A DNA stretch of 10,408 nucleotides from contig DFIB01000237.1 of the NCBI GenBank assembly GCA_002371375.1, forward strand, positions 1-10,408, written 5' to 3'. The stretch comes from Mageeibacillus sp. UBA3708. GTDB taxonomy: Bacteria > Bacillota > Clostridia > Saccharofermentanales > Saccharofermentanaceae. Below the pieces are notes generated by a model, which saw only the letters and a list, made by a program, of their open reading frames with translations, had not been told where the DNA came from and searched no databases. A program made the translations under genes and the position numbers. Numbering within the stretch: position 1 is the first letter of the stretch; each line of letters begins with the position of its first letter. Positions 1 to 7,142 of this stretch are shown piece after piece.

Positions 1-466
1 GCTGACCGCCTGATAACTGTGTCGGAAACTTCTTCCAGTCCTGCTCCGTGATCTCCACCTTGGCAAAAAGATCCTTGGCCCTCTGAGCCAGTTCCTTGCG
101 GTTTTTGGTCAGGAGGAGTCCGCTTACCATTACATTATCCAGCGCACTCATCGTATCATTCAGGTAATTCTGCTGGAAAACAAATCCGCAGTGATTGCGC
201 CTGAACACAGCAAGTTTGTCATTGCTGTATTTGGAGATATCCTCCGCCCCGTACCTGACCTGTCCCAGTGTCGGTCTGTCCATTCCCGACAGCGAATACA
301 GCAGCGTGCTCTTGCCGGAACCGGAGTTGCCCATAATTACCGTAAAATCTCCCTCATAGATCTTCAGATTGAGATTCTTGATTACATGCTGCTGAACGCT
401 CTCATTCGAATAAGTCTTGCAGAGATCCGTTGCCTCAAGTATTGCTTTCTTTGTCTTGTCAGCCAT
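1..466 (-). CDS. ABC transporter ATP-binding protein (MacB/LolD/BceA-like), 5' part only
   Basis: This is the N-terminal 155 residues of an ABC-type ATPase, cut by the left edge of the window. Visible motifs are Walker A GNSGSGKST (about residues 46-54), a Q-loop in FVFQQNYLND (about 95-104) and the start of the signature LSGGQ (151-155), where the window ends. Walker B and the H-loop lie outside. The sequence around the Q-loop fits the group that pairs with FtsX-type permeases (MacB, LolD, BceA) in efflux or antimicrobial-peptide defence, so a permease gene is expected just to the left. The start is ATG at 464-466, with AAAGGAG at 476-482 nine bases upstream. Its promoter is shared divergently with the membrane protein gene at 599 and carries the TCTTAAC-type repeats. 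Family assignment is firm; substrate is unknown. Confidence 0.92.
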   Translation of the reverse strand, partial: MADKTKKAILEATDLCKTYSNESVQQHVIKNLNLKIYEGDFTVIMGNSGSGKSTLLYSLSGMDRPTLGQVRYGAEDISKYSNDKLAVFRRNHCGFVFQQNYLNDTMSALDNVMVSGLLLTKNRKELAQRAKDLFAKVEITEQDWKKFPTQLSGGQ

Positions 467-511
467 TATCTTAAGCTCCTTTGCCACGGGTTATTCCCTT
501 AATCTGAGCTT

Positions 512-517
512 ATTGTA
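512..517 (-). promoter_or_regulatory. -10 box of the ABC transporter gene
   Basis: Read leftward, TACAAT lies 14 bases after the conserved block GTTAAGACTTCC (543-532). The expected transcript start is near 505, giving a leader of about 39 bases that contains the AAAGGAG ribosome binding site. There is no good TTGACA-like -35; TTAAGA in the repeat block lies 19 bases away, which fits an activator-dependent promoter. The DUF4097 gene has the same 14-base spacing. Confidence 0.5.
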
Positions 518-531
518 TGACATGAGCCTTA

Positions 532-577
532 GGAAGTCTTAACGCAGAGTTTAAGAGATTCTTAACTGATTCTTACA
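532..577. promoter_or_regulatory. Tandem TCTTAAC-like operator A (probable OmpR-family regulator site)
   Basis: Four half-sites lie in a row: TCTTAAC at 537, GTTTAAG at 549, TCTTAAC at 560 and TCTTACA at 571, giving start-to-start spacings of 12, 11 and 11 bp. Direct repeats at one helical turn are typical of OmpR/PhoB-family response regulators. Read on the other strand, the pair at 560-577 has the form TGTAAG-N5-GTTAAG, resembling the CiaR consensus NTTAAG-N5-WTTAAG. The same layout occurs at 3338-3383. The site sits between two divergent -10 boxes, so it could control both directions. The bound regulator is not proven; the OmpR-type regulator at 5262-5951 is the obvious candidate. Confidence 0.65.
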
Positions 578-583
578 TACGTG

Positions 584-592
584 TGATATACT
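584..592 (+). promoter_or_regulatory. Extended -10 promoter for the membrane protein gene at 599
   Basis: TGA followed by TATACT (587-592) forms a TGn-extended -10 box. Its last base lies seven bases before the A of the ATG at 599, which is where transcription normally starts. The mRNA would therefore begin at or very near the start codon. No ribosome binding site is visible upstream, consistent with a leaderless transcript. Confidence 0.55.
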
Positions 593-598
593 CATCGC

Positions 599-1018
599 AT
601 GGTCGGACAATTTGCATCATTGAAGCTATATGTAACAGCCGTTAGTGTAGGGATCATTACAGTGTTCCTGCCGTGTGTCCGGCTGGTCGCGGATGTCAAC
701 GGCGAGAAGCAGACTTTCTATTCATCCGTAATGAAGAGCAACTGGGGCATATTTATCCTCATTCTCTATATCCTGGCATTGGTCCTGACCGCCAAGAATC
801 ATCCGGTCCCGGCAGTGATAGCCGGATTCCTCGGTGCCGGGCTGGAGACCTACTGTGTATTCACAAGAGCCGCCGGGGCAGCCGGCAAACTGACCGTCCG
901 CGGCTATACGGTCGTCAAGACCGGCTATGAGTACGGAATCTACATTATGATGATCGGCCTGATGGGGCTCGTCATGGGAGGATTGTGGGCAATATCAGAG
1001 TATTTGGGGGATGAGTGA
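599..1018 (+). CDS. Small four-helix membrane protein of unknown function
   Basis: A 139-residue integral membrane protein that I do not recognise. Four hydrophobic segments are seen at about residues 9-30, 48-65, 67-90 and 112-133, with short loops and an acidic C-terminus ending in GDE. No catalytic motif is visible. The start at 599 is the first ATG after an extended -10 box and no Shine-Dalgarno sequence precedes it, so translation is probably leaderless. It is transcribed divergently from the ABC ATPase gene, with the TCTTAAC-repeat operator between them. The pairing suggests an accessory part of an envelope-stress or transport response, by context only. The last 13 codons are partly repeated at 1795-1836, after the next gene, which indicates a former second copy. 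Confidence 0.75.
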   Translation: MVGQFASLKLYVTAVSVGIITVFLPCVRLVADVNGEKQTFYSSVMKSNWGIFILILYILALVLTAKNHPVPAVIAGFLGAGLETYCVFTRAAGAAGKLTVRGYTVVKTGYEYGIYIMMIGLMGLVMGGLWAISEYLGDE

Positions 1019-2816: not shown

Positions 2817-3287
2817 TTATTCCCCGATTATCTTCAGCACGCTGTTCTTGCCGTTGAGCTCGATCATGTTGCAAGTATCGGCAGTTGTAACAGTGTTACA
2901 CTCGATATTGTTGTTCTTGCCCTCGCATCTCGTATCGAAAGCAAATCCCTTGGGCACGCGAAGTTCCACATTGCCGCCGATAACGTTGATGTCAACTGCT
3001 CCCTGCGTTCCGTCAAGTGCCAGCTTAAGGTCACTCTTCGTATCGATCTCTATCCTCTCGAAAGCAAGGTTGCTCACATTCAGGACTCCGCCCTTGATAT
3101 CGATCTCGATGTGCTCCGCATTCTTCGGGATACCGACCTTAACCGGGATGTCACCGTCGATATCGATGTCGGCCTGTTCGTGGTCTGTATCGAACTTTAC
3201 CGTTGCCGGCACCACGATCGTGTTGTCCTCTGTTCCGTACAGTGTTACCTCGCTGCTGTTCTTGATCTTGATATCATAATCTTTCAT
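2817..3287 (-). CDS. DUF4097-like beta-helix protein (LiaG/YvlB-like)
   Basis: A 156-residue protein made of short alternating hydrophobic/acidic beta strands (DIDIDGDIPVKV, HIEIDIKGGVLNV, IEIDTKSDLKLAL, AVDINVIGGNVELRV) with Gly/Asn turns. This is the pattern of the DUF4097 putative adhesin fold, a right-handed beta-helix. In Bacillus the family member LiaG belongs to a cell-envelope stress operon, though LiaG is membrane-anchored. No signal peptide or membrane helix is seen here, so it is probably cytosolic or peripheral. An ATG at 3293 is in frame, but GGGAGG at 3296-3301 is only two bases from it and eight bases from the ATG at 3287, so 3287 is chosen. The promoter carries the same TCTTAAC repeats as the ABC gene. 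Single-gene transcript with its own terminator. Confidence 0.75.
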   Translation of the reverse strand: MKDYDIKIKNSSEVTLYGTEDNTIVVPATVKFDTDHEQADIDIDGDIPVKVGIPKNAEHIEIDIKGGVLNVSNLAFERIEIDTKSDLKLALDGTQGAVDINVIGGNVELRVPKGFAFDTRCEGKNNNIECNTVTTADTCNMIELNGKNSVLKIIGE

Positions 3288-3295
3288 TGTCATAT

Positions 3296-3317: not shown

Positions 3318-3323
3318 AGTATA
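3318..3323 (-). promoter_or_regulatory. -10 box of the DUF4097 gene
   Basis: Read leftward, TATACT is preceded by TGT, making a TGn-extended -10. It lies 14 bases after the block GTTAAGACTTCC (3349-3338), the same distance as at the ABC gene promoter. The expected start is near 3311, giving a leader of about 24 bases with the ribosome binding site inside it. Confidence 0.6.
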
Positions 3324-3337
3324 ACAAGCCCGGATAC

Positions 3338-3383
3338 GGAAGTCTTAACGTCAAGCTTACCAAATTCTTAACTGTTTCTTAAA
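3338..3383. promoter_or_regulatory. Tandem TCTTAAC-like operator B
   Basis: The four half-sites are TCTTAAC at 3343, GCTTACC at 3355, TCTTAAC at 3366 and TCTTAAA at 3377, with spacings of 12, 11 and 11 bp, exactly as at 537-577. Two blocks are shared with operator A in sequence and separation: GGAAGTCTTAAC, and 26 bases later ATTCTTAACTGnTTCTTA. The bases around and between these blocks differ, so the likeness is unlikely to be a simple recent duplication. On the opposite strand the pair reads TTTAAG-N5-GTTAAG, close to CiaR sites. Confidence 0.7.
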
Positions 3384-3392
3384 TGTGGCGGG

Positions 3393-3401
3393 TGCTATAA
3401 T
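3393..3401 (+). promoter_or_regulatory. Extended -10 promoter for the membrane protein gene at 3408
   Basis: TGC followed by a perfect TATAAT (3396-3401). The last base lies seven bases before the A of the ATG at 3408, the same distance as at 592/599. Expected transcription start and start codon coincide, so the mRNA is probably leaderless. Confidence 0.65.
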
Positions 3402-3407
3402 CAGATC

Positions 3408-4073
3408 ATGAAATACGGCGAATCATCTTTTGATATAATTTACCTTCTGTTTGCCATTATCAGCGGAATAATTATCCTGATCAGGCGCAGAGACACTATC
3501 GGCAAACTCATGGGTTCGGCCGCGCTTATTCTCGGAGCAGGAGATGCTTTCCACCTTATCCCGAGAGTATTGAATTACTTCGTTGACGGTGACTTTACGG
3601 CATGGCTCGGATACGGCAAACTGATAACTTCCATTACGATGACAATATTCTATGTGCTGCTGTTTTTACTCCACACAAAGCTTTTTGTCTGGAACAGCAA
3701 AACAAATAAGAATCGTATTCTGATCTTACTCCTGATTGCCACAGCCTGCAGAGTCATTCTCTGCCTGCTCCCCGGCAACGACTGGGCCGGCGGCGGAAGT
3801 TCTGTCTTTTACGGGACCATCCGCAATATTCCTTTCGTCATGATCGGGGTGTTGATAGCTGTCATTTATTATCAGAGACGTAATGAACGGAAGAATTTCA
3901 AGAGGGTCTGGCTGTATATAACCCTGTCGTTTCTGTTCTATATCCCCGTCGCGGTTGCGGCATCCCTTGTGCCAATGCTCGGCATGCTGATGCTGCCCAA
4001 GACGGTATGTTACATGCTGATGCTGGGTGTTTTTCTCAAGGAAATTGACGGGAACTATCTCACGCTTTCCTGA
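3408..4073 (+). CDS. Seven-helix integral membrane protein of unknown function
   Basis: A 221-residue membrane protein that I do not assign to a named family. Hydrophobic segments lie at about residues 9-25, 33-50, 68-92, 101-120, 137-156, 167-188 and 190-211, giving about seven helices. The loops are positively charged (RRRD after helix 1, YYQRRNERKNFKR after helix 5), suggesting that these loops are cytoplasmic. No enzymatic motif is obvious. The start follows an extended -10 by seven bases and has no ribosome binding site. It is divergent from the DUF4097 gene across operator B. Its 3' end overlaps the 3' end of the histidine kinase gene tail to tail by 14 bases, with no terminator between them, so convergent transcription could interfere. 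Confidence 0.78.
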   Translation: MKYGESSFDIIYLLFAIISGIIILIRRRDTIGKLMGSAALILGAGDAFHLIPRVLNYFVDGDFTAWLGYGKLITSITMTIFYVLLFLLHTKLFVWNSKTNKNRILILLLIATACRVILCLLPGNDWAGGGSSVFYGTIRNIPFVMIGVLIAVIYYQRRNERKNFKRVWLYITLSFLFYIPVAVAASLVPMLGMLMLPKTVCYMLMLGVFLKEIDGNYLTLS

Positions 4074-5265
4074 CAAAGACCTCCGCAACGAATCCGCCGT
4101 CACGTCCGTTGTGGAAATCTATCTCGCCTTCCATCTTCCTCATGAAGTAATCTGCCAGATACAGTCCCAAACCGCTGCCGGGGAGACCTGACGAACCGGT
4201 GCCGCGGTAGAATTTCTGCGTGAGCAAAGACAATTCTTCTTCTGGAACACCGGGGCCCTCATCGCTGATCTTTATGATGATTCCTTTGTCATTCTTGGAA
4301 TATTCAACCGTTACATCAGTCTTCGCGTATTTAAGTGAATTGCCGATGATGTTATCGATCACCTGTTCCATCCTCAGAGCGTCGTAATAAAGCAGGCATT
4401 CAGGAACACTTCCGGTCTCCCTGATATTGCCTGATGTCTTGAGATTATCGATCATGTCACCGATCATGAGTGAAGAGTTATCGGACGGAGCCACCTTAAG
4501 CTCCGATACCTCTTCAAGAGAAGCGCTCATCATGTTGCTTATAAGGCTGTCTATCGTCGCCGCCTTGGCTCTTATGACCTCCGTCTTCGACGTGACATCC
4601 GGAGAAGGATGTTTGACTTCAAGGACCTCGCATGTGGCGCTTATAGTAGCAAGCGGCGTTCTTATGTCGTGGGATAATTCGGCGAGCATCTCCTGCTTGG
4701 CCTTCTGCATCTCCGCCTCCTTGGCCCGTGCGCTCTTAAGCTCCTCACGCATGATATCGAAGCTCTCCGTGAACCCGCCGAAAAAATCGCCGCGTCCTTT
4801 GGCGAGAGGGAAATCCAGATTGCCCCTGGCCACCTCACCCGCGAACTTGCCGAGCTTTCTGAACGGCCTGATGTATTTGACATAGACGAAGATAAGAAGC
4901 GCCGTTCCCGCTGCAGCAAATGCCGCCCATACGACGATCATCCTTACCGTCATCCCGTGCTCTACGGCTGCCACTTCATCATCGACGTCATTCCACACGG
5001 CCTTGCCTGTTACCACGCCGTCGTTCACTATGTCCATTACAAGTGCGCCGGACCTGTAGTAACCGTTAAGACGCGAAGCATAATCGGAATCGGTGACATT
5101 GATCACCACGCAGCCCTCAGGCGCACTGCCGCCCTCCGCTATCTTCTCCACCTGAGAATTGTAATAGACCATGTCGCGCACGGACCGTTCGCTCCTGCGG
5201 AACACCGGGATGAGCCCGGCACATATCAGAACGATCCAGCAGATTACGACATATCTGAACTTCAT
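4060..5265 (-). CDS. Sensor histidine kinase, HAMP type
   Basis: A 401-residue membrane histidine kinase, partner of the regulator just upstream. Order: TM1 (about 5-22), an extracytoplasmic segment of about 85 residues (23-107), TM2 (108-130), HAMP (131-183), then the dimerisation/phosphoacceptor box ELSHDIRTPLATI with His199. The ATPase domain follows: N box DNIIGNSLKY (304-313), G1 DEGPGVP (335-341), and G2 GSGLGLYLA (363-371). All core residues are present, so it should be active. The sensing region is longer than in BceS-type kinases, which have almost none, so it may detect a ligand outside the membrane. Its start ATG overlaps the regulator stop by 4 bp, and GGAG lies eight bases upstream inside the regulator gene. 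It is the last gene of the leftward string. Confidence 0.95.
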   Translation of the reverse strand: MKFRYVVICWIVLICAGLIPVFRRSERSVRDMVYYNSQVEKIAEGGSAPEGCVVINVTDSDYASRLNGYYRSGALVMDIVNDGVVTGKAVWNDVDDEVAAVEHGMTVRMIVVWAAFAAAGTALLIFVYVKYIRPFRKLGKFAGEVARGNLDFPLAKGRGDFFGGFTESFDIMREELKSARAKEAEMQKAKQEMLAELSHDIRTPLATISATCEVLEVKHPSPDVTSKTEVIRAKAATIDSLISNMMSASLEEVSELKVAPSDNSSLMIGDMIDNLKTSGNIRETGSVPECLLYYDALRMEQVIDNIIGNSLKYAKTDVTVEYSKNDKGIIIKISDEGPGVPEEELSLLTQKFYRGTGSSGLPGSGLGLYLADYFMRKMEGEIDFHNGRDGGFVAEVFVRKA

Positions 5266-5951
5266 TCACCGATCTCCAGAATGTACCCCGTGCCCCAGAT
5301 GGTCTTGATGTATTGAGGGTCATTGGGATCCTTCTCTATCTTCTCGCGAAGGCGCCTTATGTGTACGTTCAGCGTGCCGTCACTGTAGAACGAATCGCCC
5401 CATACGGCTTCAAATATCTCATTCTTGGTGACTATCGTATTGCGGTGTTCGTACAGATACTCCATGAGAGCAAACTCACGGGCTTTGAGCTGCACTTTCC
5501 TGCCGTTCAGAGTTACGCTCATCGTGGCACGGTCCATCGGTGAGGACTCCTGCTTTGCAGCCTGTCCGCCCGAAGAAGAAGCGCCCTGATTGCGCCTCAA
5601 TATGACCTTGACCTTGGCGAGCAGAACACTTAAGGCATACGGCTTCTTGACGTAATCATCACCGCCGATATTGAGCGCTATCAGCACATCATCGTCGCTC
5701 TGGCGCGCACTGATGAACAGTATCGGTATATCGGAATCCTCGCGTATCTTTTTGCACAGTTCGAAGCCGCTCCGGTCGCCGAGATTGACATCGAGAAGCA
5801 CAACATCGCAGGTATTTCCTGCAAGGAATCCCAGGCACGAATCCATGTCATTCGCAACGTACGAACTCACGCCGAACATCTCGAAATACTCGGCTGTCAT
5901 CTTCGTAAGTTCAACTTCATCGTCGACGATAAGACAGTTATAGTGTGCCAT
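5262..5951 (-). CDS. OmpR-family response regulator
   Basis: A 229-residue two-domain regulator. The receiver domain (about 1-120) has the acidic pair Asp10/Asp11, phosphoacceptor Asp54 in VLLDVNLGD, Ser81 and Lys103 in KKPY. A Ser/Gly/Gln-rich linker (121-136) leads to a winged-helix DNA-binding domain (about 140-229), with the recognition helix in GTLNVHIRRLREKIE. OmpR-family regulators bind tandem direct repeats about 11 bp apart, the very pattern at 537-577 and 3343-3383. It starts 9 bases after the end of the ligase gene; the nearest good ribosome binding site, GGGAGG inside the end of that gene, is 19 bases away, so translation may be weak or coupled. It overlaps the kinase gene by 4 bp. 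Target genes are inferred, not shown. Confidence 0.95.
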   Translation of the reverse strand: MAHYNCLIVDDEVELTKMTAEYFEMFGVSSYVANDMDSCLGFLAGNTCDVVLLDVNLGDRSGFELCKKIREDSDIPILFISARQSDDDVLIALNIGGDDYVKKPYALSVLLAKVKVILRRNQGASSSGGQAAKQESSPMDRATMSVTLNGRKVQLKAREFALMEYLYEHRNTIVTKNEIFEAVWGDSFYSDGTLNVHIRRLREKIEKDPNDPQYIKTIWGTGYILEIGE

Positions 5952-5960
5952 AAAGGTATC

Positions 5961-7142
5961 TTACAGCTTTCCTCCCTTTGAACCTCCGAGGCTGGCGGAA
6001 TTAAGTATATTCGTATCAAATGAGAACGTGATATCCTCCTCCGTTCTTGCCCTCTTGAGCGCGAGCTTTATCATCCTGTCGAGCAGTTCCTTATAAGGGA
6101 CACCCAGAGGTTCCCACAGATAGAAGGACAGGGATCCCGGGATCGTGTTGATCTCGTTGAAGTAGAGCTTGCCCGTATCCTCATCTATCATGAAGTCGAT
6201 CCTTGCGACTCCGTTGCATCCGAGCGCCTTAAAGGACTTCACGGCCATGCTCCTGACCTCTTCTCTCTTCTCCGGCGTCAGTTCGGCAGGTATCTTGCGT
6301 GATACGCTGGCCATGCCCTTGGAACCGCTTCCCTTGGCATTGGATACATACTTGTCTTCGTAGCTTAATATCTCATCACTGTGGAGAGGTTCCTCACACT
6401 CAGAGGCCTCCGCCTCATTCTCATCTCCAAGTACAGAGCAATTGATCTCACGCAGATTCATTATGGCATGCTCTATCAGTATCTTCGTTGCATATCTGAA
6501 AGCATCATCGACGGAACGTGACAGCTCCGCTCTGTCCTTTGCTACGCTGATGCCGACGCTGGAACCGAGGTTGACCGGCTTGACGATAACAGGGTAGCCG
6601 AACTTCTTCTCTACACTGTCGAGAAGAACATTCATCTCCTGATAGTCCGAGAGCGTATATGTCCTCGCATCGAGAACCGGGATATCGTACTCCTTAAGCA
6701 CCGCCTTCATTATGAACTTGTCCATGCCTATGGCCGATGCCGTAACATCACACCCCACGAAAGGCACTCCCAGTGTCTTCAGGAATCCCTGCAATGTTCC
6801 GTCCTCCACATTCGTTCCGTGAACCGCCGGGAAAACTACATCTACTGCAATCTCCTTGTTCTTGCCGAATTTCTTGAGGGGATACGGCAACAGCACAACC
6901 TTGCCGTCCTCATTCATCATAACGACCCTCTGCGACTTATTAAGAAGCGCGGGAATGTCCTTATATGCCTCTATATCACCTATTGATTCCCCGATATACA
7001 TCTCGTTCTTCTTGGTCATATATACCGGGATCACATCATACTTCTCCGTATCCATTGCAAGGAATGCCTGGATTCCCGTAATAACGGATACCTCGTGTTC
7101 AACGCTCTTACCGCCGAACAGCATGGCTACTGTTGATCTCAC
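5961..7142 (-). CDS. ddl: D-alanine--D-alanine ligase family protein
   Basis: A 393-residue ATP-grasp enzyme of the Ddl/Van ligase family, which joins two D-amino (or hydroxy) acids for the peptidoglycan stem. Visible landmarks: GGKSVEHEVS (10-19), PAVHGTNVEDGTLQG (105-119), the glycine-rich GSSVGI (193-198), the omega-loop region SYEDKYVS (260-267), and the metal/phosphate end EINTIPGSLSFYLWE (330-344). The loop tyrosine-bearing YEDKY resembles D-Ala-D-Ala enzymes (YEAKY in E. coli DdlB). The NTIPG segment is followed by SLSFYLW rather than the usual MTxHSLxP of Ddl or FTxYSRxP of VanA, so substrate choice cannot be fixed. An acidic insertion lies at about 240-256. The start is GTG at 7142 with AGGAGG nine bases upstream; that site overlaps the stop of the MurF-like gene. 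The product probably supplies that ligase. Confidence 0.92.
   Translation of the reverse strand: MRSTVAMLFGGKSVEHEVSVITGIQAFLAMDTEKYDVIPVYMTKKNEMYIGESIGDIEAYKDIPALLNKSQRVVMMNEDGKVVLLPYPLKKFGKNKEIAVDVVFPAVHGTNVEDGTLQGFLKTLGVPFVGCDVTASAIGMDKFIMKAVLKEYDIPVLDARTYTLSDYQEMNVLLDSVEKKFGYPVIVKPVNLGSSVGISVAKDRAELSRSVDDAFRYATKILIEHAIMNLREINCSVLGDENEAEASECEEPLHSDEILSYEDKYVSNAKGSGSKGMASVSRKIPAELTPEKREEVRSMAVKSFKALGCNGVARIDFMIDEDTGKLYFNEINTIPGSLSFYLWEPLGVPYKELLDRMIKLALKRARTEEDITFSFDTNILNSASLGGSKGGKL

Follow-up and report, generated by a model that had tools for sequence, protein, structure and literature searches.

Why should two intergenic regions with unrelated flanks, 2.8 kb apart, carry what looks like the same control element, and which protein reads it? 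The window in which both regions lie, that is, the whole stretch of DNA analysed here, corresponds to the entire contig C187 (10,408 bases); the draft genome to which it belongs measures 2.4 Mb, with an estimated completeness of 86%. Judged by the regulator discussed below, the closest named relative found is 'Ruminococcaceae bacterium isolate RUG14124' (93% identity), and the records of further relatives bear the names Saccharofermentans, Mageeibacillus, Eubacterium, Clostridiales and Lachnospiraceae, many of them from ruminant guts; the host is probably a gut bacterium of rumen origin.

Two control regions of the same design

A previous sequence-only reading of this DNA had claimed that both regions (A and B) share a pair of elements at equal separation, and this is what we find, with GGAAGTCTTAAC at positions 532 and 3338 and ATTCTTAACTGnTTCTTA at 558 and 3364. 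The four half-sites follow each other in steps of 12, 11 and 11 bp in both regions, and the gap of 14 nt between operator and leftward -10 is identical as well (Table 1). The claim of identical spacing holds leftward but breaks down on the right, where TTCTTA lies 11 nt (A) and 14 nt (B) from the -10. The surrounding sequence was said to differ, which is correct, since the two regions, alike at 38 of 47 operator positions, share only 3 of 14 across the gap, 22 of 62 beyond it on the left and 30 of 91 on the right side.

For the 18-bp element of the pair, only 0.04 matches are expected at up to three mismatches, and two were reached in 1 of 200 shuffles; the 12-mer alone is weaker (0.64 expected at up to two mismatches, with 29 of 200 shuffles reaching two), both real copies being exact. 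Moreover, a weight matrix built from other genomes only places B and A at the top of the window (Table 1), far above the third site (-31.6) and the best score among 200 first-order shuffles (-10.7). The element statistics, together with the matrix scores against shuffles, rule out a chance repeat. A 38-bp operator pattern modelled on A and B occurs, at up to three mismatches, only at these two places in the 86% of the genome that the draft is estimated to cover.

Table 1. Features of the window discussed in the text.
Feature	Position	Strand	Remarks
ABC ATPase gene, predicted target of A	2..487	-	Pfam ABC_tran; 5' start likely near 466; gene cut by contig end
Leftward -10 TACAAT	512..517	-	14 nt from operator A
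Predicted operator A	532..579	+	half-sites at 538, 550, 561, 572; matrix score 53.1, second best in window
Rightward extended -10 TGATATACT	584..592	+	behind operator A; ATG 6 nt later
139-aa membrane protein (by eye), divergent partner of A	599..1018	+	ORF
158-aa DUF4097-like beta protein, predicted target of B	2817..3293	-	left gene of 8 of 81 sites; fold match
Leftward -10 TATACT	3318..3323	-	14 nt from operator B
Predicted operator B	3338..3385	+	48 bp, four tandem half-sites, CTTAA on +; matrix score 61.1, best in window
Half-site 1 of B, CTTAAC	3344..3349	+	CTT at this column in 80 of 81 sites
Half-site 2 of B, CTTACC	3356..3361	+	CTT in 66 of 81, TT in 76 of 81 sites
Half-site 3 of B, CTTAAC	3367..3372	+	CTT in 80 of 81 sites
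Half-site 4 of B, CTTAAA	3378..3383	+	CTT in 80 of 81 sites
Rightward extended -10 TGCTATAAT	3393..3401	+	behind operator B; ATG 6 nt later, leaderless-looking
221-aa membrane protein, divergent partner of B	3408..4073	+	5193 homologues
Sensor histidine kinase, partner of the regulator	4060..5265	-	HisKA and HATPase_c
OmpR/PhoB-type response regulator, proposed binder	5262..5951	-	Response_reg and Trans_reg_C; co-occurrence

A search for a sigma-70 -35/-10 pair at A and B found none at either, and the leftward genes have no recognisable -35. The gene left of A likely starts at the ATG of MADKTKK behind AAAGGAG; its best NCBIfam scores for LolD and MacB stay below the cut-off, for an ATPase cut by the contig end. 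The 158-aa protein left of B, which we take to be DUF4097-like, gave only a sub-threshold DUF6801 hit in Pfam; its model (pLDDT 92) matches best the fold of 4qrk, a clostridial 'putative cell adhesion protein' (probability 1.00, TM 0.63). Immediately past this gene there is a 13-bp perfect inverted repeat (2754-2799), likely a terminator, and positions 2565-2678 hold two pairs of repeats, spaced by 61 bp, with CCGCGAAAACTGCGGAA and TTTTCCGCGGA as hairpin-like elements. On the rightward side, no Pfam or NCBIfam family was matched by the 139-aa membrane protein; the family of the 221-aa protein is large, and one source names a member 'peptidoglycan/LPS O-acetylase OafA/YrhL'.

A predicted operator family with a fixed leftward promoter

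The matrix was derived from a strict core, YCTTAACTGNTTCTTA, gathered from 80 named loci with a related regulator. The core occurred at 46 sites with enough flank, in 45 of the 80 loci, and the 40 sites that were distinct over 48 bp, none of them from the window, served for training. A scan of 1.52 Mb (the window plus loci L065-L183) at a cut-off of -5 yielded 96 sites, or 81 once repeats of the same 70 bases were removed. CTT is conserved at the four half-site columns (Table 1), so the 12/11/11 spacing is a feature of the family, and the predicted operator is conserved in Saccharofermentans-like and Lachnospiraceae genomes. A site is present in 66 of the 80 named loci (L112 being the same contig stretch as L065); the other 14 have none above -5, and 13 of them have no ABC gene of 60% in the locus DNA. 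Core letters vary inside the orthologue group in Lachnospiraceae, and the strict core is altered in several loci with a regulator of 63-65% identity (L142, L153, L158). Among 20 further core-like matches (L084-L103), the full operator was found in six (L084, whose site is that of L070 met again at a different contig end, L086, L087, L088, L092 and L101), and no full operator in the other 14, where the best score was -14.2 or lower and L090 holds the strict core without the remainder. Most genus relatives (L066-L081) also conserve an additional TTCTTACACTG by the ABC -10, some 37 nt to the left of half-site 1; it was not seen at A or B.

The leftward -10 stretch lay outside the matrix. A TANNNT stands exactly 14 nt leftward in 78 of the 80 distinct sites with enough flank, the next-commonest gaps being 19 (31 sites) and 27 (14 sites); both exceptions, L134 and L144, have TATATT at a gap of 15. 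As for the gene on the left, assigned by an ORF rule and not by curated annotation, it is an ABC ATPase at 62 of the 81 sites, DUF4097-like at 8, another gene at 10 and none at 1 (L070, contig end). In the 66 named loci with an ABC gene of at least 60% identity, the operator lies directly before that gene in 57 and before the preceding gene in 8, the latter being DUF4097-like in L111, L112 and L113 and adaptor-like in L130, L146, L170, L171 and L183, and in L162 the contig ends where the ABC gene begins. No single family accounts for the left genes: ABC, DUF4097-like, CPBP protease, serine hydrolase and HlyD adaptor genes, unrelated to one another, all occur. The ten that match no window protein include a CPBP protease (L086), a beta-lactamase-fold serine hydrolase (L087) and a HlyD adaptor (L130) by Pfam; by eye only, L088 resembles L086, L092 and L101 are transporter-like, and L146, L170, L171 and L183 adaptor-like.

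Two of these families meet in single loci. ABC and DUF4097-like genes diverge in genome G033 (L076) from two back-to-back operators, one facing each gene, and genome G003 (L073) has the same two-operator layout with a second site just under the cut-off (-6.0); L109 and L110 each hold both kinds of site. In the two relatives examined, the gene behind the ABC ATPase encodes a permease with two FtsX stretches (782-784 aa), and in L130 the HlyD adaptor precedes the ATPase. We take ATPase, FtsX permease and HlyD adaptor together to be a MacB-like exporter arrangement. Altogether, the operator is asymmetric: read with CTTAA on the + strand, it has its conserved target, the leftward gene of each pair, on the opposite strand, a polarity that rests on promoter geometry.

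The rightward genes, unlike the leftward ones, vary across the sites, and so does the distance from the operator core to the rightward -10, which runs from 5 to 40 nt and is mostly 7 or 39. In L110, for instance, a homologue of the 221-aa protein stands to the right of the ABC operator instead. In the window an ATG lies exactly 6 nt behind each extended -10 (584-601 and 3393-3410), so that the rightward transcripts are probably leaderless. The same layout, with the ATG 5-7 nt on, is found on the right of 29 of the 81 sites, where it begins the regulator gene in 25 cases and the window's own genes in two, the last two being false (L067 and L109, with an immediate stop). Across the 80 named loci, 880 ORFs reach a length of 150 aa or more, and 23 of them have a leaderless-looking start of this kind; a control with shifted frame gave 1.

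The probable regulator and its rivals

The response regulator encoded in the window reaches Pfam scores of 78.6 bits for the receiver domain and 91.8 bits for the winged-helix Trans_reg_C, its best PDB relatives are RegX3, MtrA and BaeR, and the phospho-acceptor aspartate D54 is invariant in 11 of 11 aligned regulators; an identity as VanR was rejected (NCBIfam 169.7 bits against a cut-off of 350). Its gene starts 10 bp past ddl (5951-5961), within a murF-ddl-regulator-kinase run. Among the 80 mapped loci only L104 also has ddl directly before the regulator, and the two-component system may therefore have moved next to the cell-wall genes. A matrix scan of the window found no operator at the regulator gene itself; among 18 genus relatives, 13 have the operator directly in the intergenic stretch from which the ABC gene and the regulator-kinase genes diverge.

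Co-occurrence was followed in two samples, which overlap and consist of related, not independent, genomes. The first held 59 genomes (the own one, 34 others of the genus and 24 of the order), and its orthologue cut of E <= 5.3e-94, against 8e-78 for paralogues, was set after the gap was seen. An orthologue of the regulator was present in 19 of the 59, with 63-73% identity outside the own genome, and the strict core was found in 17 of these 19 and in 0 of the 40 without one (Fisher 6e-13, for related genomes). The two misses, G003 and G033, have an operator with a single core letter changed (scores 42.7 and 43.5). Once one mismatch is allowed the core loses its specificity, appearing in 29 of the 59 genomes, 12 of them without orthologue, with a reversed control pattern in 15 of 59. 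The second sample drew 291 genomes evenly across the class and shares six with the first (orthologue at E <= 1e-80, at most 10 candidates scored per genome); it gave the core in 5 of 6 genomes with an orthologue and in 1 of 285 without (Fisher 2e-9). The orthologue-bearing genome without strict core, G147, has a weaker operator (11.0) before its ABC gene. Genomes with the motif and no such regulator, which the sequence-only reading had named as the case against itself, thus come down to 0 of 40 and 1 of 285, the latter (G337) being discarded as a bare 16-mer lacking the full operator. The local regulon of the kinase/regulator pair suggested there is thus supported, the strict core tracking the regulator orthologues, with the correction that only the leftward genes are conserved targets.

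The own genome encodes five further OmpR-type regulators at E <= 1e-30, and one of them belongs to a second regulator-kinase-ABC module on contig C131 (L083), with a regulator of 53% and an ABC protein of 59% identity. In this module the operator (score 19.8) keeps both the geometry and the -10 gap, whereas its core reads TTCTTAACAAATTCTTAA, so cross-talk with the C131 system is possible. Paralogue systems in other genomes come in some cases with AAATTCTTAA-type cores and in others with three half-sites, CTTTA/CTTAA/CTTAA, whose distance from the -10 is unchanged. When the orthologue matrix was run on 17 paralogue loci, most gave no convincing site; a geometry search, which left out L187, L191, L195, L196 and L200 for want of an ABC gene to look before and disregarded the rows of L065, L112, L130 and L183, whose operator stands one gene ahead of the ABC gene, recovered three-half-site versions in L185, L186, L189, L192, L194 and L198 and nothing convincing in L188 and L190. 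Across the predicted paralogue operators geometry is kept and letters change.

Such a paralogue might itself be the owner of A and B, alone or together with the local regulator, as the likeness of the C131 operator would suggest. We regard this as rather improbable, since the strict core is found in 0 of the 8 orthologue-free genomes (out of 40) that encode a paralogue at 49-56%, and since the paralogue operators examined lack the TG after CTTAAC, a difference that is itself limited because some orthologue loci at 63-65% lack it too. A global regulator such as WalR/YycF, with the local pair standing nearby by coincidence, could be imagined from the 11-bp tandem design common to WalR, SaeR and PhoP boxes, but its likelihood is very small: the WalR consensus TGTWAH-N5-TGTWAH is absent from A and B even with one mismatch, and every one of the 59 genomes has an OmpR-type regulator at E <= 1e-30, yet none of the 40 without orthologue has the strict core. 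Least credible of all, practically to be dismissed, is a repeat of recent duplicate or mobile origin with no role in regulation, which the near identity of two stretches so close together could recall; their flanks are unrelated, each kind of site is kept before its own gene elsewhere, and both kinds coexist in L109 and L110.

A different objection concerns what the operators do, as both genes of each divergent pair could be activated from the common site. The short distances to the rightward -10s in A and B, and the regulator genes that begin behind a right-hand extended -10 in 25 sites, speak for such an arrangement, which we nevertheless hold to be unlikely because the rightward distance is not kept, the rightward genes are not conserved, and extended -10 promoters need no -35. 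Moreover, in the excerpts of a study on Salmonella PhoP, a box placed 12 nt from the -10 was functional only in direct orientation, and the present operator is reversed toward the rightward genes (PMC3335776). Taken together, A and B are very probably, as far as sequence comparison can tell, operators of the regulator encoded at 5262-5951, which would activate the leftward ABC genes from A and the DUF4097-like gene from B.

Proposed mechanism and comparison with known systems

In the mechanism that we propose, the kinase would sense an envelope or antimicrobial signal and phosphorylate the regulator, probably at D54; the phosphorylated protein would then bind head-to-tail over the missing -35 and recruit RNA polymerase to the leftward ABC transporter operon (A) and the DUF4097-like gene (B). 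The rightward genes would fire from their own extended -10 promoters without a -35, and, as the operator core ends 11-14 nt from these -10s, the bound regulator may block them, hindering rather than helping rightward expression. The presence of murF and ddl beside the regulator and the nature of the targets point to a role in envelope stress or antimicrobial defence. More tentatively, and with clear doubt, the system could be a reciprocal switch, in which binding turns the leftward gene on and blocks a leaderless rightward promoter, in relatives often that of the regulator itself, and whose fixed geometry is reused by several paralogous modules per genome that only a few half-site letters keep apart.

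From sequence alone, a regulator, a predicted operator and targets can be assigned to a two-component system of many gut Clostridia. The 48-bp signature and the 14-nt promoter rule allow regulons to be found in genomes known mostly from metagenomes, and the paralogous modules, with fixed geometry and altered letters, offer a natural set for studying how regulators of the OmpR type avoid one another's sites. Among the matches listed in open PMC papers, none dealt with this regulator or its operator.

Comparison with known systems is possible at the level of both design and letters. According to the excerpts of PMC4832192, regulators of the OmpR/PhoB type attach to direct repeats in the form of tandem dimers, and the PhoP of Mycobacterium was bound more tightly by DNA with three or four tandem motifs than by DNA with two. 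The head-to-tail direct repeats of about 11 bp predicted here are the operator design met in this family. As to the promoter, the excerpted Salmonella study describes an active architecture III, a direct repeat that is directly oriented and lies 21-23 nt ahead of the -10; its activity depends on orientation and phase, and 21 or 22 nt gave about a quarter of the activity at 23 (PMC3335776). Here the last GTTAAG on the target strand ends 20 nt from the -10, a distance not strictly comparable with those, and there is no -35, from which we infer leftward activation; the Salmonella box has two half-sites, whereas four are found here (PMC3335776). In the available parts of PMC10601699, the CprABC-CprK-CprR system of Clostridioides difficile is likewise a two-component system over an ABC transporter operon in a Clostridium-like bacterium, although the relatives studied here encode a permease with two FtsX stretches and a length of roughly 785 aa, to which a HlyD adaptor is added in some.

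Regarding the letters, the WalR/VicR box shares with A and B the 11-bp tandem half-sites and the OmpR-type regulator, according to the portion consulted of PMC4168254. The SaeR box of Staphylococcus, GTTAAN6GTTAA, is also an 11-bp head-to-tail repeat, with other targets and without the four half-sites found here (PMC5083920, in part). No exact match to it occurs at A or B, and SaeR as the binder was set aside; of the one-mismatch matches, three fall within A and B and one elsewhere in the window. The excerpts of PMC6222199 describe for RR_1586, an OmpR-family regulator of C. difficile, a tandem direct repeat RTTAAG with an 11-bp period. On the target-gene strand, B matches this consensus twice with two mismatches, a weak likeness, since two matches at up to three mismatches also turned up in 14 of 200 shuffles; A has no match at three mismatches. 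RR_1586 targets sporulation and germination, against an ABC transporter and a DUF4097-like protein here, and the present operators differ from its repeat in having four half-sites and a first step of 12 bp (PMC6222199). Judged by its letters, the predicted operator is therefore of the common OmpR type, nearest to the repeats of C. difficile RR_1586 and SaeR.
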